Shown here piece after piece: positions 9,711 to 29,983 of a stretch of DNA of 32,495 bases. Source of the stretch: Planctomycetaceae bacterium (GTDB lineage: Bacteria; Planctomycetota; Phycisphaerae; Phycisphaerales; SM1A02). Numbering within the stretch: position 1 is the stretch's first letter; each line of letters starts with the position of its first letter. Under the pieces are notes generated by a model, which had not been told where the DNA came from, did no database searches, and was given only the letters and a program-made list of their open reading frames with translations. The position numbers and the translations under genes are program-made. Location: the NCBI GenBank assembly GCA_027483065.1, contig JAIXVI010000206.1:1-32495 (forward strand), written 5' to 3'.

Positions 9711-9746
9711 GGCTTACGTGCCGACCTCTCCTTACGTGCCCACCTT
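9711..9746. repeat. 18-bp tandem duplication spanning the chemoreceptor stop codon
   Basis: Two 18-bp units (9711-9728 and 9729-9746) agree at 14 positions, with the shared core CTTACGTGCC. Read on the minus strand, the true stop TAA at 9734-9732 is followed 18 nt later by another in-frame TAA at 9716-9714, each preceded by GGCACG. Confidence 0.8.
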
Positions 9747-11426
9747 AAACTGACCAACGACTTGCTTGAGGCTCGCGACCTGCGCTGCCGTTTGCTCGCT
9801 GGCCGCAGCCAATTCCTCGGAGTTTCCAGCGTTCTGCTGCGTGACCTTGTCGAGTTCGGCGACACCAGTATTGATTTGTCCGATGCCCTGCGCTTGCTCG
9901 CGGCTGGCATTCGCGATTTGCGCGAGGAGCTCGTTCACTTCACGCGTGCCATCGACGATGGTTCGGAGTGACGTGTCGACCTCGCCGCAAATCGAAACTG
10001 CACGCTCGGCTCGATTCGTCGATTCCTCGATCATCGCGGCGGTTTCACGCGCGGCCTGCGCCGAGCGACCCGCAAGATTTCGTACTTCTTCGGCGACGAC
10101 CGCAAAGCCCTTTCCTGCCTCGCCTGCGCGGGCGGCTTCAACCGCAGCGTTGAGTGCAAGAAGGTTGGTCTGGAATGCGATCTCATCGATGACCTTGAGC
10201 ACCTTCGCGATCGAGTCGCTCGATTGCTTGATTGCGCCCATCGCTTCGCTCATGCGGACCATTTGCTCTTTGCATTGATCGGCACGGACGCGTGCGTCGT
10301 CGGAGCGATTCACCGCGGCATTGGCGTTCTGCGCGTTGCGCTCCGTCATGGCGTTCATCTCCTCAAGGCTCGCGCTGATTTCCTCGAGACTTGCGGCTTG
10401 CTGGCTCGCGCCGCTTGCAACCGACTGGCTCGTCGATGAAACCTGCGAACTGCCAGCATCGATCTCCGACGCGCCCTTGCGGATGTCACCAAGGATTCCC
10501 TCGAGCTTGCCGACGAATTTGTTGAACCAACCCGCCATCGTCCCGAGTTCATCGTGCGAGGAATCGTCGAGACGTTTGGTCAAGTCGCCCTCGCCTTCCG
10601 CGATGTCACGAACACGGTCGATCATCGCTTGCATCGGACGACCAAACGTGAGCTTCAAGAGGAATGCGAAGCCGAACGCGCCGACCACGAGCATCGGGCC
10701 CGTCCAAACGAGTCCGCTCGAGACAAAACCAGCGACCTGCTCGTCCACGGTTGTGAGCGGAATGGCCACTTCATAGGCTCCGTGCGATCCGCCGACCTTC
10801 CAACCTTCCATCGGAAATCCCAGTGGATCCTTGCCGTCTTTGTCTGCGTCGAATTCACCGCGCGGGTCGCCGTGGCACACCATACAGCTCGCATCGAGTG
10901 CGATGGCGCGCATGTAATGCAGCGTGTTCGTGCTCTCGTTGATCGCGAAAGCAGCGCCTTCGCCGCCAGAATCGAGTTGCTTTTCCAGTCGCGCGAGAAG
11001 TTCCGCGCGGAATGATCCACTCTCAGGCTCGTTCTTCTTGTTTCGCGCTTCGAATGCTGCGATTTTGAAGTCGATCCCCTCTTTCTTCGCCGCCTTTTCT
11101 GCGGTTTGCCAACCAACGACCACCGGAATCGTTTGGAAGAAACGACTCTCGGTGTAGTCGCCACCCTTCGCAACGCTCTCCTGCAATTCCGCCATGAGCG
11201 TTTCGGTCGCGATCGATTTCGCAAGGAAGAGCTCGCTTGCATGGTTCTTCGCTTCGTCCGCGACAGCCGTGAACGCGGCGGCTTTTTCGACCATCGCATG
11301 CTCAGCGCTCTCGCGGAATCGTGTGACAAACACGACGTAGTTGACCGCGACCGCGGCGATCACGAGGAAGATCGTGAGCGCGATGATCCGCGTTGAGAGG
11401 GAGCGATTCTTGATCCAAGCGAACAT
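9732..11426 (-). CDS. Methyl-accepting chemotaxis protein with periplasmic heme c sensor
   Basis: The 564-residue protein has membrane helices at about 12-34 and 239-260 enclosing a roughly 200-residue periplasmic sensor. A HAMP domain (about 262-314) and a full cytoplasmic signalling domain follow, whose hairpin tip includes [20 protein letters not shown] near 410-430. The sensor resembles the Tll0287/DUF3365 type and contains CMVCH at 181-185 (10872-10886), a CxxCH site for covalent heme c. The expected role is sensing redox state, oxygen or a heme ligand and relaying it to CheA/CheW. No C-terminal CheR-binding pentapeptide is present and no other chemotaxis gene is in the window. CGGAGG 5 nt before the ATG fixes the start. 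The gene ends in a duplicated stop. Confidence 0.95.
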
Positions 11427-14590: not shown

Positions 14591-15184
14591 TCAGCGTGAG
14601 GAATCGCTGAACTCGAGCATGCGCAGTTCCCTCGCGGCATCGCCAAGAATCCAACGCGAGAGTGGCTCATGACGCGCGTGGGTCGCGAGGACGTTGTGAA
14701 GGAGGGTTTCTGCGTAGAGCGCCGCCTCGCCGGAACCGTCATCGGCGAGGAGGAAGACGTGAAGCGCCCACGGTCGATTGGTGGAATTGTCGGGTTGCGT
14801 GTGCTCGAGATGCCATCGCACAGCGTCGGTGAGTCGCCGAGCGAGCGGCTCGGTCTCCATGCCCTGCGTGGACCGCTCCCGCACAAGTCTGTGCAGCGCG
14901 TGCACGGCGGAAAGTTCGCATTCGGCCCAAACTTCGATCGCGAGGAACTCGTCCGGTGCGAGGAGGGATCCCGCCTCCGATCGAATCGCCCTCCACGGGT
15001 CGAGCACCTCCCCTGCACACGCGCGCCAAAGTTGCTGCTCGCTGCGATTCCCAGAAAGCAACGTCGGGTCGGGCGGCAACGGTGCGAGTGCGCTTACGCG
15101 TTGCGCCGCTGCGCCGGGCAGCGCGTGCGCGGAGGGTTCGCCCGCGTGGTGTTCGAGCAGTTGGATCCATTGATCTCGGCGCAT
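14591..15184 (-). CDS. Hypothetical protein
   Basis: The 197-residue soluble protein is rich in Leu, Ala, Arg and His, with Trp residues at regular places (WIQLL, LWRAC, VWAEC, RWHLE, RWILG). It has no signal peptide or membrane helix and no family I recognise. It opens with MRRDQWIQLLEHHAGEP. Purine-rich GAGAGAAAG lies about 12 nt before the ATG and is a poor ribosome-binding site. The protein-like composition makes this frame more credible than the overlapping opposite-strand frames. It is divergent from the zinc-ribbon gene at 15421, with 236 bp between. Confidence 0.7.
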   Translation of the reverse strand: MRRDQWIQLLEHHAGEPSAHALPGAAAQRVSALAPLPPDPTLLSGNRSEQQLWRACAGEVLDPWRAIRSEAGSLLAPDEFLAIEVWAECELSAVHALHRLVRERSTQGMETEPLARRLTDAVRWHLEHTQPDNSTNRPWALHVFLLADDGSGEAALYAETLLHNVLATHARHEPLSRWILGDAARELRMLEFSDSSR

Positions 15185-15386
15185 GGGGTCGGGTTTCTTT
15201 CTCTCGTGTCGCTGTCACAGCGGAGGAATCGGCGGGAATCGGCGGGCGGGATGCGCGCTGCACTCGTCGTGGAAGCGGCCATGATCGCAGTTTCGCCATT
15301 GCACGAGTGCCTGGATTCGCTGAAGTACCGCGCGAGACGCCGGTCCTCGGACATCGAGGAAGCACCCACGAAATCTGACTTCCCGT

Positions 15387-15414
15387 TTGGAGAGCGAGGG
15401 TCCGGTGCTATTCT
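15387..15414 (+). promoter_or_regulatory. Promoter of the zinc-ribbon gene
   Basis: TTGGAG (15387-15392), 16 bp, TATTCT (15409-15414), then CGCCCC and the ATG at 15421. The -10 is 6 nt from the start codon, so the mRNA would be leaderless. Confidence 0.5.
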
Positions 15415-15420
15415 CGCCCC

Positions 15421-15750
15421 ATGCTGATCCGCAGCCGCGACCTCTCGAGGCTTCACCGGCGACAGTGCGTCGCCTGCGGCTATGCCGGACGATTTGTCGA
15501 TCGGCCCGGACAGTCGCACTGCCCGCGTTGCACGTGCGATTTCTCCGAGCGTCCTCCGAAGAGTTACGCCGAGATGGAGGGCCTTGAAGACGCCGATCTC
15601 GCGTCGAAGCGTCGCCAACGGTCGGCGTATCTCGAGCCGGAACAGCGCGACTGGCGGATGATTTCACGCTGGGCTGTCTTCTTCTGCGGCGTGGCCATCG
15701 TCGCTATCTCCGTCGTTGTCCTCGGCTTCGCAGCGTTTGTCGTGCGTTGA
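15421..15750 (+). CDS. Small zinc-ribbon membrane protein
   Basis: This 109-residue protein has an N-terminal zinc-ribbon-like knuckle pair (C16-x2-C19 and C34-x2-C37, with an extra Cys at 39), a charged middle part and one C-terminal membrane helix at about 84-107. The predicted form is a tail-anchored protein with a cytoplasmic metal-binding head. No family is recognised. It appears to be leaderless. Its last two codons and stop lie inside the first unit of a 15-bp tandem repeat that continues beyond the gene. Confidence 0.8.
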   Translation: MLIRSRDLSRLHRRQCVACGYAGRFVDRPGQSHCPRCTCDFSERPPKSYAEMEGLEDADLASKRRQRSAYLEPEQRDWRMISRWAVFFCGVAIVAISVVVLGFAAFVVR

Positions 15751-15786
15751 CGAGGAGTGCGTTGACGAGGAGTGCGTTGACGAGGA
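15742..15786 (+). repeat. Three 15-bp repeats covering the stop codon
   Basis: Three perfect copies of GTGCGTTGACGAGGA (15742-15756, 15757-15771, 15772-15786) are followed by a decayed fourth (TCGCGTTGAAG). The first copy contains the last two codons and the TGA of the zinc-ribbon gene. Since 15 is a multiple of three, each later copy supplies another in-frame TGA. Confidence 0.95.
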
Positions 15787-15846
15787 TCGCGTTGAAGTGA
15801 TCTTCGCTGCCGCCTGAACTCGTCGGCAATGGCCGCGGGAGATTCG

Positions 15847-15852
15847 TACACT
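15847..15852 (+). promoter_or_regulatory. -10-like hexamer before the dipeptidase start
   Basis: TACACT, then CGCGCCC (7 nt), then the ATG at 15860. No Shine-Dalgarno and no clear -35 are seen. Confidence 0.45.
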
Positions 15853-15859
15853 CGCGCCC

Positions 15860-17308
15860 ATGGCCGCCACCTCCTCTTCCGCGACTTCGAACGCCGCCTC
15901 ATCCCTCCCGACCGCCGCGCAACTCATTGCTGAGGTTGATCGCGGCTTCGCGCAGTCGACGACGCGCCTTTCGGATTTCCTTCGAATTCCAAGCGTGAGC
16001 ACCGATCCTGCGTTCGATGGCGAAACGCGCCGATGCGCGGAGTGGCTGGTCGCAGAACTCCGAGGACTCGGTTTCACCGCGGAAGCCGCAAAAACCATCG
16101 GCCATCCGATGGTTGTCGCGCATCACCCGGGCGTCGGCCCGGACGCAGCAGCGCGGCCGCGCATTCTGTACTACGGGCACTACGACGTGCAGCCGGCAGA
16201 TCCACTCGAGCTTTGGACGAGCCCGCCGTTTGAGCCGGTGATCGTCGAGGGGCCGCGTGGCAAGCGCATCGTGGCGCGCGGCGCGGTGGACGATAAGGGT
16301 CAAGTCATGGGAATCGTGGAGGCGCTGCGCGCGTGGCACGCGCTCGCGGGCGGCCCGCCGTGCCCCGTCACACTGATGATTGAGGGTGAAGAAGAGTCGG
16401 GCAGCAAGAGCCTCGAGCCATTCATGCATGAGGCGAAGGCGCGACTTGCGGCAGATGTCTGCGTTGTCTCCGACACGGGCATGTGGGATATCACGACGCC
16501 CGCGATCACCACGCGTTTGCGCGGCCTCGTCTACATGGAAGTCACGATTCACGGCCCAACGCGTGATCTTCACAGCGGTATGTACGGCGGTGCGGTGCCG
16601 AACCCCGCGAACGTCCTCGCGCGAATTGTGTCCGAACTCCACGATGCCGATCGCCGCGTCACGATCCCCGGTTTCTACGACGGCGTGGGCGAGTTGCCTG
16701 CCGCGACGAAGGCGCAATGGGAGTCGCTTGGATTTAGCGACGACGAATTCCTCGGAGACATCGGCATGACGCAGGGTTTCGGCGAGAAAGGTCGCTCGAC
16801 GCTGGAGCGCACCTGGTCGCGCCCGACCTGTGATGTCAACGGGATTTTCGGCGGCTACACCGGCAAAGGCGCGAAGACCGTCATCGCGGCGCACGCGACC
16901 GCGAAGGTGAGTTTCCGCCTCGTTTCGAAGCAGGATCCCGAGAAGATCGCGAAAGCGTTTGAAGACTTCGTGCGCTCGCGGCTTCCCGCGGGTTGCCGCG
17001 CGGAGTTCGAGAGCCACGGCGCAAATCCGGCGATCGAAGTGAGCGAGAGTTCGCGCTACCTCGCAGCGGCGGAAGGCGGATTGCATGCCGTGTTCGGCAA
17101 GTCGCCGCTCCTCATCGGAACGGGTGGAAGCATTCCCGCGGTTGGAGCGATTCAGCGCATTCTCGGTATGGATTCACTGCTCGTTGGCTTCGGTCTGGAC
17201 GACGACTGCGTCCACTCGCCGAACGAGAAGTTCGAACTGACCTGCTACCAAAATGCGATTCGAAGTCACGCAGCGATGCTCGGTGAATTCGCGAAGCTCA
17301 AGCGTTGA
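15860..17308 (+). CDS. M20 family dipeptidase
   Basis: The 482-residue protein is a zinc-dependent M20 metallopeptidase of the dipeptidase/carnosinase type, expected to hydrolyse dipeptides in the cytoplasm. It shows LYYGHYDVQP (His107 metal ligand, Asp109 catalytic), RGAVDDKGQ (bridging Asp at 144-145), MIEGEEESGS (catalytic Glu near 177), VSDTGMW near 203-209 and DCVHSPNEKF with the C-terminal metal-ligand His452. The dimerisation domain sits between, with a typical LHSGMYGG motif. The length is usual for the family. An unconserved Ser/Ala-rich N-terminus of about 20 residues is probably disordered. The start is taken at 15860, where a -10-like element lies 7 nt upstream. Confidence 0.95.
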   Translation: MAATSSSATSNAASSLPTAAQLIAEVDRGFAQSTTRLSDFLRIPSVSTDPAFDGETRRCAEWLVAELRGLGFTAEAAKTIGHPMVVAHHPGVGPDAAARPRILYYGHYDVQPADPLELWTSPPFEPVIVEGPRGKRIVARGAVDDKGQVMGIVEALRAWHALAGGPPCPVTLMIEGEEESGSKSLEPFMHEAKARLAADVCVVSDTGMWDITTPAITTRLRGLVYMEVTIHGPTRDLHSGMYGGAVPNPANVLARIVSELHDADRRVTIPGFYDGVGELPAATKAQWESLGFSDDEFLGDIGMTQGFGEKGRSTLERTWSRPTCDVNGIFGGYTGKGAKTVIAAHATAKVSFRLVSKQDPEKIAKAFEDFVRSRLPAGCRAEFESHGANPAIEVSESSRYLAAAEGGLHAVFGKSPLLIGTGGSIPAVGAIQRILGMDSLLVGFGLDDDCVHSPNEKFELTCYQNAIRSHAAMLGEFAKLKR

Positions 17309-17414
17309 TCGCTTGTCGAACGTGGAGTGATCGAAGAAGCCGCGAGCGCGACGTGGGCGACGTGTCCTACATGGGCGCAGCCAGCCGCGCTTGCCCGGCG
17401 TTGATTGGTGTCAA

Positions 17415-17750
17415 TCAGTGTCGGCGGCGGGCTGGCGTGGTCGCGGCCTGTTCCGCGGCGCGATTCGATCGAAGGCGACGCGTCTCACGAACGAGGCGTG
17501 AGAGTCGCTCGGCATGGTCAATCCGCGAAGCCATCGCGTTGAGCATGAAGAGGCCCGCAAGTGCTGCGGCTCCGAGCGTGAGGACGATGGCGACTGCACC
17601 CATGTCGGGGGAATCGGCAAGATTCGCCGCCCGATTCAGCGTGGTCGCCTGCTTCAAGACGAATCCGACGAAACCGACGAGGCTCACGAGTCCGACGGAC
17701 CGGCCGAATCTGACGAATTGACCCGCTGTCTCGCTACACTCCGCCCCCAT
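17415..17750 (-). CDS. Small membrane protein, hypothetical
   Basis: The 111-residue frame has one clear membrane helix (about 50-70, GAVAIVLTLGAAALAGLFML), a weaker hydrophobic stretch before it (about 19-34) and a basic, helical C-terminus. If translation starts at 17750, its ATG overlaps the ATG of the divergent gene at 17749. An alternative ATG at 17603 would give a 62-residue single-helix protein. Neither start has a Shine-Dalgarno or a TAnnnT hexamer. The upstream segment (17660-17720) is made of degenerate CCGACGA repeats, which makes the longer start less certain. Codon choice looks genuine. Confidence 0.5.
   Translation of the reverse strand: MGAECSETAGQFVRFGRSVGLVSLVGFVGFVLKQATTLNRAANLADSPDMGAVAIVLTLGAAALAGLFMLNAMASRIDHAERLSRLVRETRRLRSNRAAEQAATTPARRRH
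17735..17740 (+). promoter_or_regulatory. -10-like hexamer before the 885-residue membrane protein
   Basis: TACACT, then CCGCCCCC (8 nt), then the ATG at 17749. The hexamer is the same as at 15847. No Shine-Dalgarno is present. Confidence 0.45.
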
Positions 17751-20406: not shown

Positions 20407-20454
20407 GTTGGCGCGCGTGCATGTCGAGGTGAGGCGTTCCCTGAGAGACTGGTA

Positions 20455-20545
20455 TTGAAGATTTGCGTTGAAGGCCTGCGTTGAAGACCTGCGTTGAAGA
20501 CCTGTGTTGAAGACCTGCGTTGAAGGCCTGTGTTGAAGACCTGTA
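20455..20545 (+). repeat. Seven 13-bp direct repeats upstream of the ABC ATPase gene
   Basis: Seven contiguous 13-bp units of consensus TTGAAGACCTGCG run from 20455 to 20545, and a partial eighth begins at 20546. Variation is confined to positions 7, 9 and the last two bases. The array lies in the 173-bp spacer and ends 34 bp before the ABC gene start. Because 13 is not a multiple of three, its TGA triplets fall in all three frames. Confidence 0.97.
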
Positions 20546-20579
20546 TTGAAGATCGAAACGTTCTGAGCGAGATCAAGTC

Positions 20580-22488: not shown

Positions 22489-23886
22489 ATGATCGACCTG
22501 AAGGATCTCCGCGAAAACCCCGACAAGTACCGCAACGGCACCCGCGACAAGTGCATGGATGTCGATATCGATCGGCTTCTCGCGCTCGACGAAGGTCGTC
22601 GTGCGATCGTCACGCGACTTGAAACCACGCGCAGCGAGCAGAATCGGATTTCGAAAGAGATTGGCCCGAAGATCGGCCAACTGAAGGGGAAACTCAAGGC
22701 AGCTGCGGGCGATGAGAAGGATCGCCTTGAGATGGAGATTGCATCGCTCGAAGCGCGGCCATCCGAACTCAAGGCGCAGGTCACCGAAGAAGAGCGCCAT
22801 CTCGCGGCGATTGAGCCTGAGTTCAAGGCACTGTGGCTGCAGGTTCCTCAGCCGCCGGCATCTGATGTTCCAAAGGGCAAAGGCAGCGAAGACAACAAGG
22901 AAATCCGTCGTTGGGCTCCTGCTGGTTGGGACTTCACGAAGACCTTTGCGGAGAACCGCGGGTTCAAGCCGCGCACGCACCTCGAGCTCGTGAAGATGCA
23001 CGGCCTTGTCGACTTCGAACGCGGCGTGAAGATGTCGGGCACGCGCCACTACGTGCTCACGGGTCTTGGCATGCGCCTGCATCAGGCCGTGCTCCGTTAC
23101 GCCGTCGACTTCATGGCCGACAAGCGCGGATTTAGCCCGATGGGGATTCCCGTCATCGTGAAGGAAGAGTGCATGGTGGGCACGGGCTTCTTCCCCGCAG
23201 GTCGCGAGCAGGCCTACCACATCGAGGAATCGAAGCGCGGCTCGGGCCACGACCTCTTCCTCACAGGCACCGGCGAAGTCGGCCTGATGGGCCTTCATGC
23301 GGACGAGATTCTTTCGCACGAGCAATTGCCGCTGAAGTACTGCACGGTGTCGACCTGCTTCCGTCGCGAGGCAGGTGCTGCGGGCAAGGACACCGCCGGG
23401 CTTTACCGCATTCACCAGTTCGACAAGGTCGAGCAAGTTGTGGTGTGCAAGGCCGACGATGCCGAAAGCCGCACGTGGCACAAGCAGATGATCGAGTCGG
23501 TCGAGATGATCCTCCAGTCGCTTGGCCTCGCGTATCGCCTGCTGCAGTGCTGCTCGGGCGATCTCGGCGTCAAGAACGAGGACATGATCGATATCGAGAG
23601 TTGGATGCCAGGTCGCGGTGATGTTGGCAAGGACGGCGCGCCGACCGGTGAGTTCGGCGAGACGCACTCCGCGAGCCGCCTCAACGACTTCCAGTGCCGA
23701 CGCCTCAACCTCCGCTACAAGGACGCGGACGGAAAGACGCGCTTCGCTTACGCGCTCAACAACACGGTTGCTGCGAGCCCGCGTGTCCTGATTCCGCTGC
23801 TTGAAATGCATCAGCAGGCGGATGGCAGCGTTGTGATCCCCGAGGCACTTCGCGGATACATGGGCGGAATCGCGAAGATTGGCTGA
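22489..23886 (+). CDS. serS: Seryl-tRNA synthetase
   Basis: The 465-residue class II synthetase charges tRNA-Ser and tRNA-Sec with serine. It opens with MIDLKDLRENPDKYRNG, carries the long N-terminal coiled coil that grips the tRNA variable arm (about 28-110), and has motif 2 STCFRREAGAAGKDT (about 288-302) with IHQFDKVE. Motif 3 lies near 423-438 (ASPRVLIPLLEMHQ). The GTGEVGL segment corresponds to the serine/ATP pocket. It is slightly longer than E. coli SerS. The stop codon lies in the first of three 18-bp tandem repeats. Confidence 0.97.
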   Translation: MIDLKDLRENPDKYRNGTRDKCMDVDIDRLLALDEGRRAIVTRLETTRSEQNRISKEIGPKIGQLKGKLKAAAGDEKDRLEMEIASLEARPSELKAQVTEEERHLAAIEPEFKALWLQVPQPPASDVPKGKGSEDNKEIRRWAPAGWDFTKTFAENRGFKPRTHLELVKMHGLVDFERGVKMSGTRHYVLTGLGMRLHQAVLRYAVDFMADKRGFSPMGIPVIVKEECMVGTGFFPAGREQAYHIEESKRGSGHDLFLTGTGEVGLMGLHADEILSHEQLPLKYCTVSTCFRREAGAAGKDTAGLYRIHQFDKVEQVVVCKADDAESRTWHKQMIESVEMILQSLGLAYRLLQCCSGDLGVKNEDMIDIESWMPGRGDVGKDGAPTGEFGETHSASRLNDFQCRRLNLRYKDADGKTRFAYALNNTVAASPRVLIPLLEMHQQADGSVVIPEALRGYMGGIAKIG

Positions 23887-23922
23887 TTCTTAAGGATCGG
23901 CTGAATCGCAAGGATCGGCTGA
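23869..23922 (+). repeat. Three 18-bp degenerate repeats covering the serS stop codon
   Basis: Units at 23869-23886, 23887-23904 and 23905-23922 share the pattern AAG-GATCGGCTGA at their 3' ends. The first is the last five codons plus stop of serS. The second and third are noncoding copies that add two in-frame TGA codons. The outer units match closely, with the middle one diverged in its first five bases. Confidence 0.9.
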
Positions 23923-23976
23923 GTTCTGCGACATGCGTTGTCCCCGCGTGCGTTTGTGCACGCAACGAGCCGACCC

Positions 23977-26052: not shown

Positions 26053-26730
26053 ATGGGCGATTGGCTTTCTCAGCCTTCTGCAAGCGACCCGAGCATCACT
26101 GCCTCGGTCGCGCTGACACGGCTCTTCCTCGCGCTGATTTTCGGTTTCATCGTTTCGCTCGTGTACCGATGGACGCGCGGGCGCTCGGCAGACGCACGTT
26201 TCGTCTCGACGCTTGTCCTTCTCACGCTTCTTCTGAGCGTGACGACGATCGTGATCGGCGACAACATCGCGCGCGCGTTCAGCATCGTCGGCGCGCTGTC
26301 GATCGTGCGTTTCCGCACAGTGGTTGAGGACACGCGCGACACGGCGTTTGTGATCTGCGCCGTGGCGATCGGCCTCGCGGTCGGCGCTGGATACATCGCG
26401 CTTCCTGCGATGGCGCTGCCGTTCATCGCTGCCGCGGCGAAACTCTTCGGCTCGGGAACGCCCGCGTTCTACGCGCTCCAAGGCGGCGCGTTCCGATTGA
26501 AGATTCGCGTCGCGCACGACTTCGTAAACCGCGAGGCACTTCTCGCAGCACTCGATGCCGCGTGCCCCGAGAAGTCGCTGCTTGGCATCGAAAGCGTTCG
26601 CGCGGGCGCGGCGATCGAACGCAGTTACGAAGTCGAACTCGGCGGCGAAGCGGCCGCCGACCAACTCATCGCGCGCCTCTCGGCGATCGATGGCGTGCTG
26701 TCGGTGGAAGTTGTGCGCGCCGCGAAGTGA
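26053..26730 (+). CDS. DUF4956 membrane protein
   Basis: The 225-residue protein has about four membrane helices in its first 130 residues and a soluble alpha/beta C-terminal domain (about 145-225). The signature DNIARAFSIVGALSIVRFRTVVEDTRDTAF-like region, around residues 75-105, is typical of DUF4956. In many bacteria DUF4956 genes sit with CotH and with a VTC-domain polyphosphate polymerase. Here the CotH gene is immediately upstream (21 nt), but the next gene is on the other strand and is a phosphoesterase. No Shine-Dalgarno is seen, so translation may depend on coupling. The stop codon is duplicated 15 bp downstream. Confidence 0.9.
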   Translation: MGDWLSQPSASDPSITASVALTRLFLALIFGFIVSLVYRWTRGRSADARFVSTLVLLTLLLSVTTIVIGDNIARAFSIVGALSIVRFRTVVEDTRDTAFVICAVAIGLAVGAGYIALPAMALPFIAAAAKLFGSGTPAFYALQGGAFRLKIRVAHDFVNREALLAALDAACPEKSLLGIESVRAGAAIERSYEVELGGEAAADQLIARLSAIDGVLSVEVVRAAK

Positions 26731-26747
26731 TTCGCCGCGACGTGAGT
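26718..26747 (+). repeat. 15-bp tandem duplication spanning the DUF4956 stop codon
   Basis: CGCCGCGAAGTGATT (26718-26732) and CGCCGCGACGTGAGT (26733-26747) agree at 13 of 15 positions. Each contains TGA in the same frame: the true stop at 26728-26730 and a second at 26743-26745. Confidence 0.85.
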
Positions 26748-29910: not shown

Positions 29911-29983
29911 TCCCCGATAGCTCAGTTGGTAGAGCGGCGAGCTGTTAACTCGCATGTCGCTGGTTCGAGTCCAGTTCTGGGAG
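29911..29983 (+). tRNA. trnN: tRNA-Asn (anticodon GTT)
   Basis: The 73-nt cloverleaf has anticodon GTT at 29944-29946, D-arm GCTC/GAGC, T-arm CTGG-TTCGAGT-CCAG and discriminator G at 29983, as in other bacterial tRNA-Asn. The acceptor stem has one mismatch, C5 (29915) against T68 (29978). CCA is not encoded. It is closely similar to E. coli tRNA-Asn in the anticodon and T arms. Confidence 0.95.

Follow-up and report, generated by a model that had tools for sequence, protein, structure and literature searches.

Short tandem arrays over the stop codons of a planctomycete genome: a probable by-product of a lineage-restricted repeat expansion

Short tandem arrays lie over the stop codons of this planctomycete genome far more often than chance predicts, and that position is genuine. 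In a 1.41-Mb sample of the genome, 35 of 753 stops were found within such an array, against 10 of 878 starts (Fisher p 1e-5). The gene-end arrays are probably a tolerated by-product of tandem duplication within a repeat expansion that is restricted to the lineage. A striking pattern is set apart here from a tempting function: on what we take to be the best reading, the copies of the stop are by-products. The analysis gives figures for the rewriting of gene ends in one planctomycete lineage, and it offers two anomalies for testing, the excess over the stop and the recurrence of arrays at orthologous gene ends.

The source genome (G000) is a 3.69-Mb draft in 318 contigs, and the window, by which we mean the whole 32,495-nucleotide stretch that was analysed, is its contig C207. 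The sample consisted of the window and 140 further contigs or contig starts of the same genome. Genes were called with a codon model, without annotation, and only those with a gene score of at least 30 were counted. Arrays were sought as ungapped tandem matches with a period of 5–60 and a score threshold of 12; a stop array was defined by a period no longer than 29 and a start lying 3 to 30 bases ahead of the base after the stop. The count of 35 arrays at 753 stops omits genes that overlap a neighbour, which are included in a listing of 36 rows, and two arrays between convergent genes were counted for both stops. The nearest named relatives are planctomycetes, several of them Phycisphaera or Phycisphaerales, and isolate names suggest ponds and lakes.

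Table 1. Genes and repeats of the window discussed in the text
Feature	Position	Strand	Remarks
serS, seryl-tRNA synthetase, 465 aa	22489..23886	+	Pfam PF00587 and PF02403; 80 relative loci; stop TGA 23884-23886
18-bp tandem array, 2.6 copies	23877..23922	+	the final serS codons and the stop fall within the first copy
CxxC/CxxC protein, 109 aa, C-terminal hydrophobic segment (zinc-ribbon ORF)	15421..15750	+	from translation
15-bp tandem array, 3.6 copies	15742..15795	+	begins over the stop of ORF 15421-15750
Methyl-accepting chemotaxis protein	9732..11426	-	PF00015, PF00672, PF11845
18-bp repeat, 1.8 copies, weak	9713..9745	-	spans the TAA of the chemoreceptor gene
DUF4956 protein gene	26053..26730	+	PF16316
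Claimed 15-bp repeat at the DUF4956 stop	26718..26745	+	13 matched bases, score 10 (threshold 12)
13-bp tandem array, intergenic	20464..20552		TRF: 7.5 copies over 20455-20552

The features of the window are collected in Table 1. The copies of the serS array read gattggcTGAttcttaag, gatcggcTGAatcgcaag and gatcggcTGA, and they add two further TGA codons, both in frame, just as the earlier note had described. The same array, in a different copy number, is present at the serS end of the relative L022, and no array containing the stop was found at the serS end of the 15 relatives L023–L037. The three other genes at which the earlier note had claimed the same arrangement fared unequally. The array at the zinc-ribbon ORF is strong, and is the strongest among the four claimed sites. 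That ORF gave no hit in a Pfam search and has a low codon score; it is missing from the genome counts because genes under score 30 were uncounted, and its stop is probably real, since 13 of the 80 relative loci gave tblastn matches. The repeat of the chemoreceptor gene is weak, having 15 matched bases and a score of exactly the threshold, and the ortholog of the gene in the sister genome G005 has no array. At the DUF4956 gene the claimed repeat falls below the threshold. No stop-containing array was seen at the zinc-ribbon and DUF4956 ends among relatives L023–L037. Across L022–L037, 5 of 107 stops carry arrays, at different genes by species, one of them being the L022 serS array. The window also holds a 13-bp array of the same repeat class in the gap 20407-20579, remote from any stop and with a period that is not a multiple of three. 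Repeats of 9/27 bp (TRF) occur at 17658-17718, at the end of a small ORF (17305-17721, + strand) where the codon-model caller favours a gene on the opposite strand. A plasmid search with window positions 14600-15900 gave no match.

Joining real gene ends to random flanks yielded a mean of 0.2 arrays over 20 runs, as against 34 of 864 for the real sequences, and swapping flanks among genes without stop arrays yielded a mean of 1.2 and a maximum of 3 of 830. These counts, with the genome-wide comparison of stops and starts, bear out the earlier proposal that position over the stop, and not sequence, is what the arrays have in common, at a frequency far above chance. At least 7 bases of the gene end, the stop among them, are included in 24 of 34 stop arrays. 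By our own count, 30 of the 36 listed rows have their stop inside the first copy and 6 do not. Array starts numbered 22 in the 6.0 kb at positions -10 to -3 and 34 in the 23.0 kb at -2 to +30, that is 3.65 per kb over the stop vs 1.48 downstream, an approximately 2.5-fold difference (p = 0.0015). Comparing starts at -15 to +9 with those at +10 to +99 gave an approximately twofold difference, which persisted under stricter thresholds and for convergent as well as codirectional gene pairs. A flat density across the stop is expected of a plain neutral model, and the observed peak therefore counts against such a model. In identity and copy number, stop arrays (0.950 and 3.2 copies, n = 36) resemble intergenic ones (0.941 and 3.4 copies, n = 136). 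An anchored master copy, or polarity of the copies, was rejected as a version of events, since first and last copy pairs were alike, with 21 and 20 mismatches respectively in 19 arrays.

The periods of stop arrays do not follow the reading frame. The earlier note had proposed that array periods at stops are divisible by three; stop-containing arrays gave remainders 0, 1 and 2 in 11, 11 and 13 cases, with no enrichment, which is the outcome named beforehand as refuting the rule, and the rule was dropped. That the four claimed sites of the window show periods of 15 and 18 is a coincidence, and the frame rule vanishes genome-wide. Intergenic arrays are distributed in the same order of remainders as 50, 47 and 44, and arrays within coding sequence as 177, 6 and 7. 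Periods of 9–20 bp were found in 108 of the 141 intergenic arrays.

Arrays are spread through all kinds of intergenic space in this genome, and their units and periods vary. The intergenic density is 117 arrays per 161 kb, approximately 0.7 per kb, and is low in the relatives, at 0.10–0.32 per kb in four groups. In the most distant of these groups (62–70% SerS identity), 4 of 405 stops had arrays, compared with 35 of 753 here (p 0.0005). Array coverage is 5.5% in tandem, 5.0% in divergent and 6.8% in convergent gaps, and the proportion of genes bearing a stop array ranges from 0.8 to 8% depending on gap length. By eye, units are unrelated from site to site, the exceptions being a GAGCGCTC family and a 31-bp GGCACGTGCC family; in this genome the 31-bp repeats, with their GGCACGTGCC palindromes, occur as tandem pairs between genes at loci L110, L143, L163 and L185. 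Intergenic units have a GC content of approximately 58% and are enriched 1.4 times in TGA, which is too little alone for unit composition to be the cause of the stop excess. The MutS and SbcD families were examined as candidate causes of the expansion. Loss of MutS was rejected, mutS1 being matched in 21 of 21 genomes (16 above the cut-off). For SbcD, 3 of 21 genomes gave weak matches, all of them under the cut-off, and this family does not therefore track the genus.

The arrays at gene ends are probably a subset of these lineage-restricted, rapidly turning-over short tandem duplications. The duplications may arise through replication slippage or a similar process, and would persist where no protein is damaged. 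When the stop and the codons just before it fall within the first copy, the protein is left intact at any duplication length. Such a duplication is silent and would therefore survive, copying the stop as a by-product. We infer both the slippage origin and the neutrality of the arrays.

Copy numbers change between sister genomes. Orthologs were located in G011, G005 and G010 via anchors from the array genes, with additional ones in G005. In G011 the array was common to 8 of 12 orthologs, judged by eye, mostly with fewer copies; the G000 genes for this comparison had been picked for high scores, which favours sharing. The L121 array has four copies in G000, three in G011, two in G005 and none in G010. 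Comparison with G005 was possible for 28 of the 36 listed stops, and a stop-containing array with a score of at least 12 was present at 11 of these 28 (10 of 27 arrays). Such recurrence, at 10/27, exceeds the 3/40 found at other G005 stops (p = 0.004), these controls being a small group, unmatched in gap length, of 20 randomly drawn genes that lack arrays and have a 3′ gap of 30 bases or more (no arrays in G005) and 20 other stops of fetched loci (three arrays). Eight of the recurrent G005 arrays were, by eye, unlike those of G000 in unit and period (alone p = 0.02); periods in G005 and G000 were, for example, 12 and 15 bp at L161, 16 and 28 at L020, and 13 and 14 at L228. At L235 (17071-17790) and on G005 contig C50 (L310), arrays of unlike units begin at nearly equal offsets, 78 and 77, after a hairpin-like stretch and a T tract in the two species, the anchor having weaker matches at other places in G005 too.

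A mutation-prone local site would produce both the peak over the stop and the recurrence at orthologous ends, and so would long-lived arrays with replaced units. The earlier suggestion of a slippage process particular to gene termini is supported in part, by the higher density of array starts at the stop and by the recurrence of arrays in G005; it holds as a local tendency and fails as one exclusive to stops, arrays being present in every intergenic context. Gene ends might even be preferred birthplaces of arrays, a process linked to termination of translation or transcription re-duplicating the stop region of the same genes in different species, with a new unit and period each time, which we think unlikely. 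We are more doubtful of site-specific birth, in which the duplications are made by a mechanism coupled to where translation or transcription stops, so that the same ends are hit repeatedly. Site-specific duplication, if it exists, would open a new route to variation at 3′ ends and C-termini in bacteria. The sharp climb of array starts over the stop and the unlike units at the same G005 gene ends speak for it, as do the slightly stronger codon scores of array genes (p = 0.036), the commoner use of TAA in them (11/36 vs 145/749, as raw counts) and the start of 2 of 66 downstream arrays within -3 to +15 of terminator-like T tracts, where 0.6 was expected. Recurrence is, however, also seen in downstream flanks. 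Among 18 genes with arrays further downstream, one had a stop-containing array in G005, and downstream arrays recurred in 6/18 vs 1/20 controls at score 12 and 4/18 vs 0/20 at score 14, but in 6/18 vs 5/20 at score 10. As downstream sites recur as well, the tendency seems to be regional and extends beyond stops. Divergent gaps are, moreover, about equally dense in arrays, and the serS, zinc-ribbon and DUF4956 ends of the window have a stop-containing counterpart among L022–L037 in L022 alone.

The earlier note had also raised a back-up stop system against readthrough. Under such a system, as weighed here, selection would keep the extra copies to catch readthrough or frame-slipped ribosomes. 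Several counts point that way. Of the 66 later copies, 63 retain a stop-type triplet, and the figure for third and subsequent copies is 35 of 37, compared with 82 of 138 for the stop-like triplets of intergenic arrays; later copies are, however, non-independent within an array and were counted only in the matched stretch. Changed stop triplets are mostly still stops, the stop type being lost in a copy of only 1 of 27 arrays, but where the gene's own copy exchanges one stop for another, the exchange can be passed on to other copies. At L174, L006 and L185, where G005 has TGA, the stop of the gene is now TAA and the last copy is still TGA, a pattern consistent with a tolerated change that began in the gene's own stop and was later passed on to other copies. 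Array genes have stops at approximately 6% of codons in each frame vs approximately 2% in other genes: over the first 33 bases past the stop, the frequency per codon was 0.0606 in every frame in 33 array genes, with no in-frame over out-of-frame excess, and 0.0187, 0.0216 and 0.0257 in frames 0, 1 and 2 of 502 other genes. Between copies, mismatches seemed rarer at the stop than at other positions (10/198 vs 70/731), but the difference was gone when neighbouring copies were compared (9/198 vs 46/731, p 0.40). When tested per array, the exact stop triplet had changed in 7 arrays vs 6.5 expected, as often as other triplets of the unit. Two of the L022 serS copies read CGA in place of the stop, the periods at stops are spread evenly over the three remainders, and Ho and Hurst report that they found no selection in favour of fail-safe stops among eubacteria (PMC6764699). 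The frame-equal stops, the triplet changes at the expected rate and the stop losses in L022 leave the back-up system unsupported, the tendency of later copies to stay stops of one type or another speaking the other way. As the main cause it was rejected, and we give it a slim chance.

A general origin of the stop arrays from dispersed elements inserted at stop codons is very improbable. The TGAGCGCTCGC family provides the case for them: it occurs 72 times in the sample, its TGA is a called gene stop in six of these, and 3 of the 36 listed stop arrays belong to it. Units in the remaining 33 rows were judged by eye to be unrelated, and no match to TTGAGCGCTCGC with at most one mismatch was found in the window; this explanation was rejected for all but a small minority. 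Examples of the TGAGCGCTCGC element were noted at L107, L125 and L153 of the sample, and in L023 near 5576. An artefact of assembly is hardly credible. The draft is in 318 contigs, and misassembly of tandem repeats is known (PMC9879509), but the same arrays appear with other copy numbers in other assemblies, namely G011, G005 and L022.

Mycobacterial MIRU loci are tandem minisatellites of variable copy number, with related, longer units at many loci. Stop arrays differ from such dispersed elements in that related sequence at many loci was not found, the units of 33 of 36 rows being unrelated by eye. Change in copy number at MIRU loci has been described (PMC3635867). In units, periods, density and copy-number change, the arrays fit a class of lineage-restricted repeats with unique units, and comparable repeats have been reported from archaeal Borg elements and from lake Planctomycetota. 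Borgs, which are giant extrachromosomal elements, have tandem repeat regions of perfect, A-rich units (PMC9879509), whereas the copies here are imperfect, the intergenic units have approximately 58% GC and the host is a planctomycete genome. Lake Planctomycetota, of the same phylum, were reported to be rich in structural variants, and deletions in their noncoding DNA were often linked to short intergenic tandem repeats, slippage being suggested; the section of that paper on repeats does not deal with position at stop codons, periods or comparison gene by gene (PMC9426551). The TAACTGA direct repeats of Beggiatoaceae are likewise intergenic and tandem, and 13 sets in one genome overlap the stop of the upstream gene, but they have a single fixed 7-bp unit and lie mostly ahead of start codons (PMC4679880). 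Additional in-frame stops past the main stop have been described in yeasts (PMC1088959) and eubacteria (PMC6764699); these are single codons under a test for selection, unlike the copied gene ends found here in any frame. Among the matches listed in a literature search of titles and abstract openings, mostly open-access, we recognised no report of an excess of arrays over bacterial stop codons.

Between serS and the CotH-kinase gene, at window positions 23940-23966, lies a GTCCC-n-GCGTT-n-GCAAC motif, which may serve the CotH gene as a leader or promoter. The strict pattern occurs at two places in the sample, this being one, and in 8 of the 80 relative loci, and similar strings are also found 3′ of serS in several relatives that have no array. 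Rfam matches mark a partial 23S rRNA gene at the contig edge (1-1348, - strand) and one tRNA gene (29911-29983, + strand).
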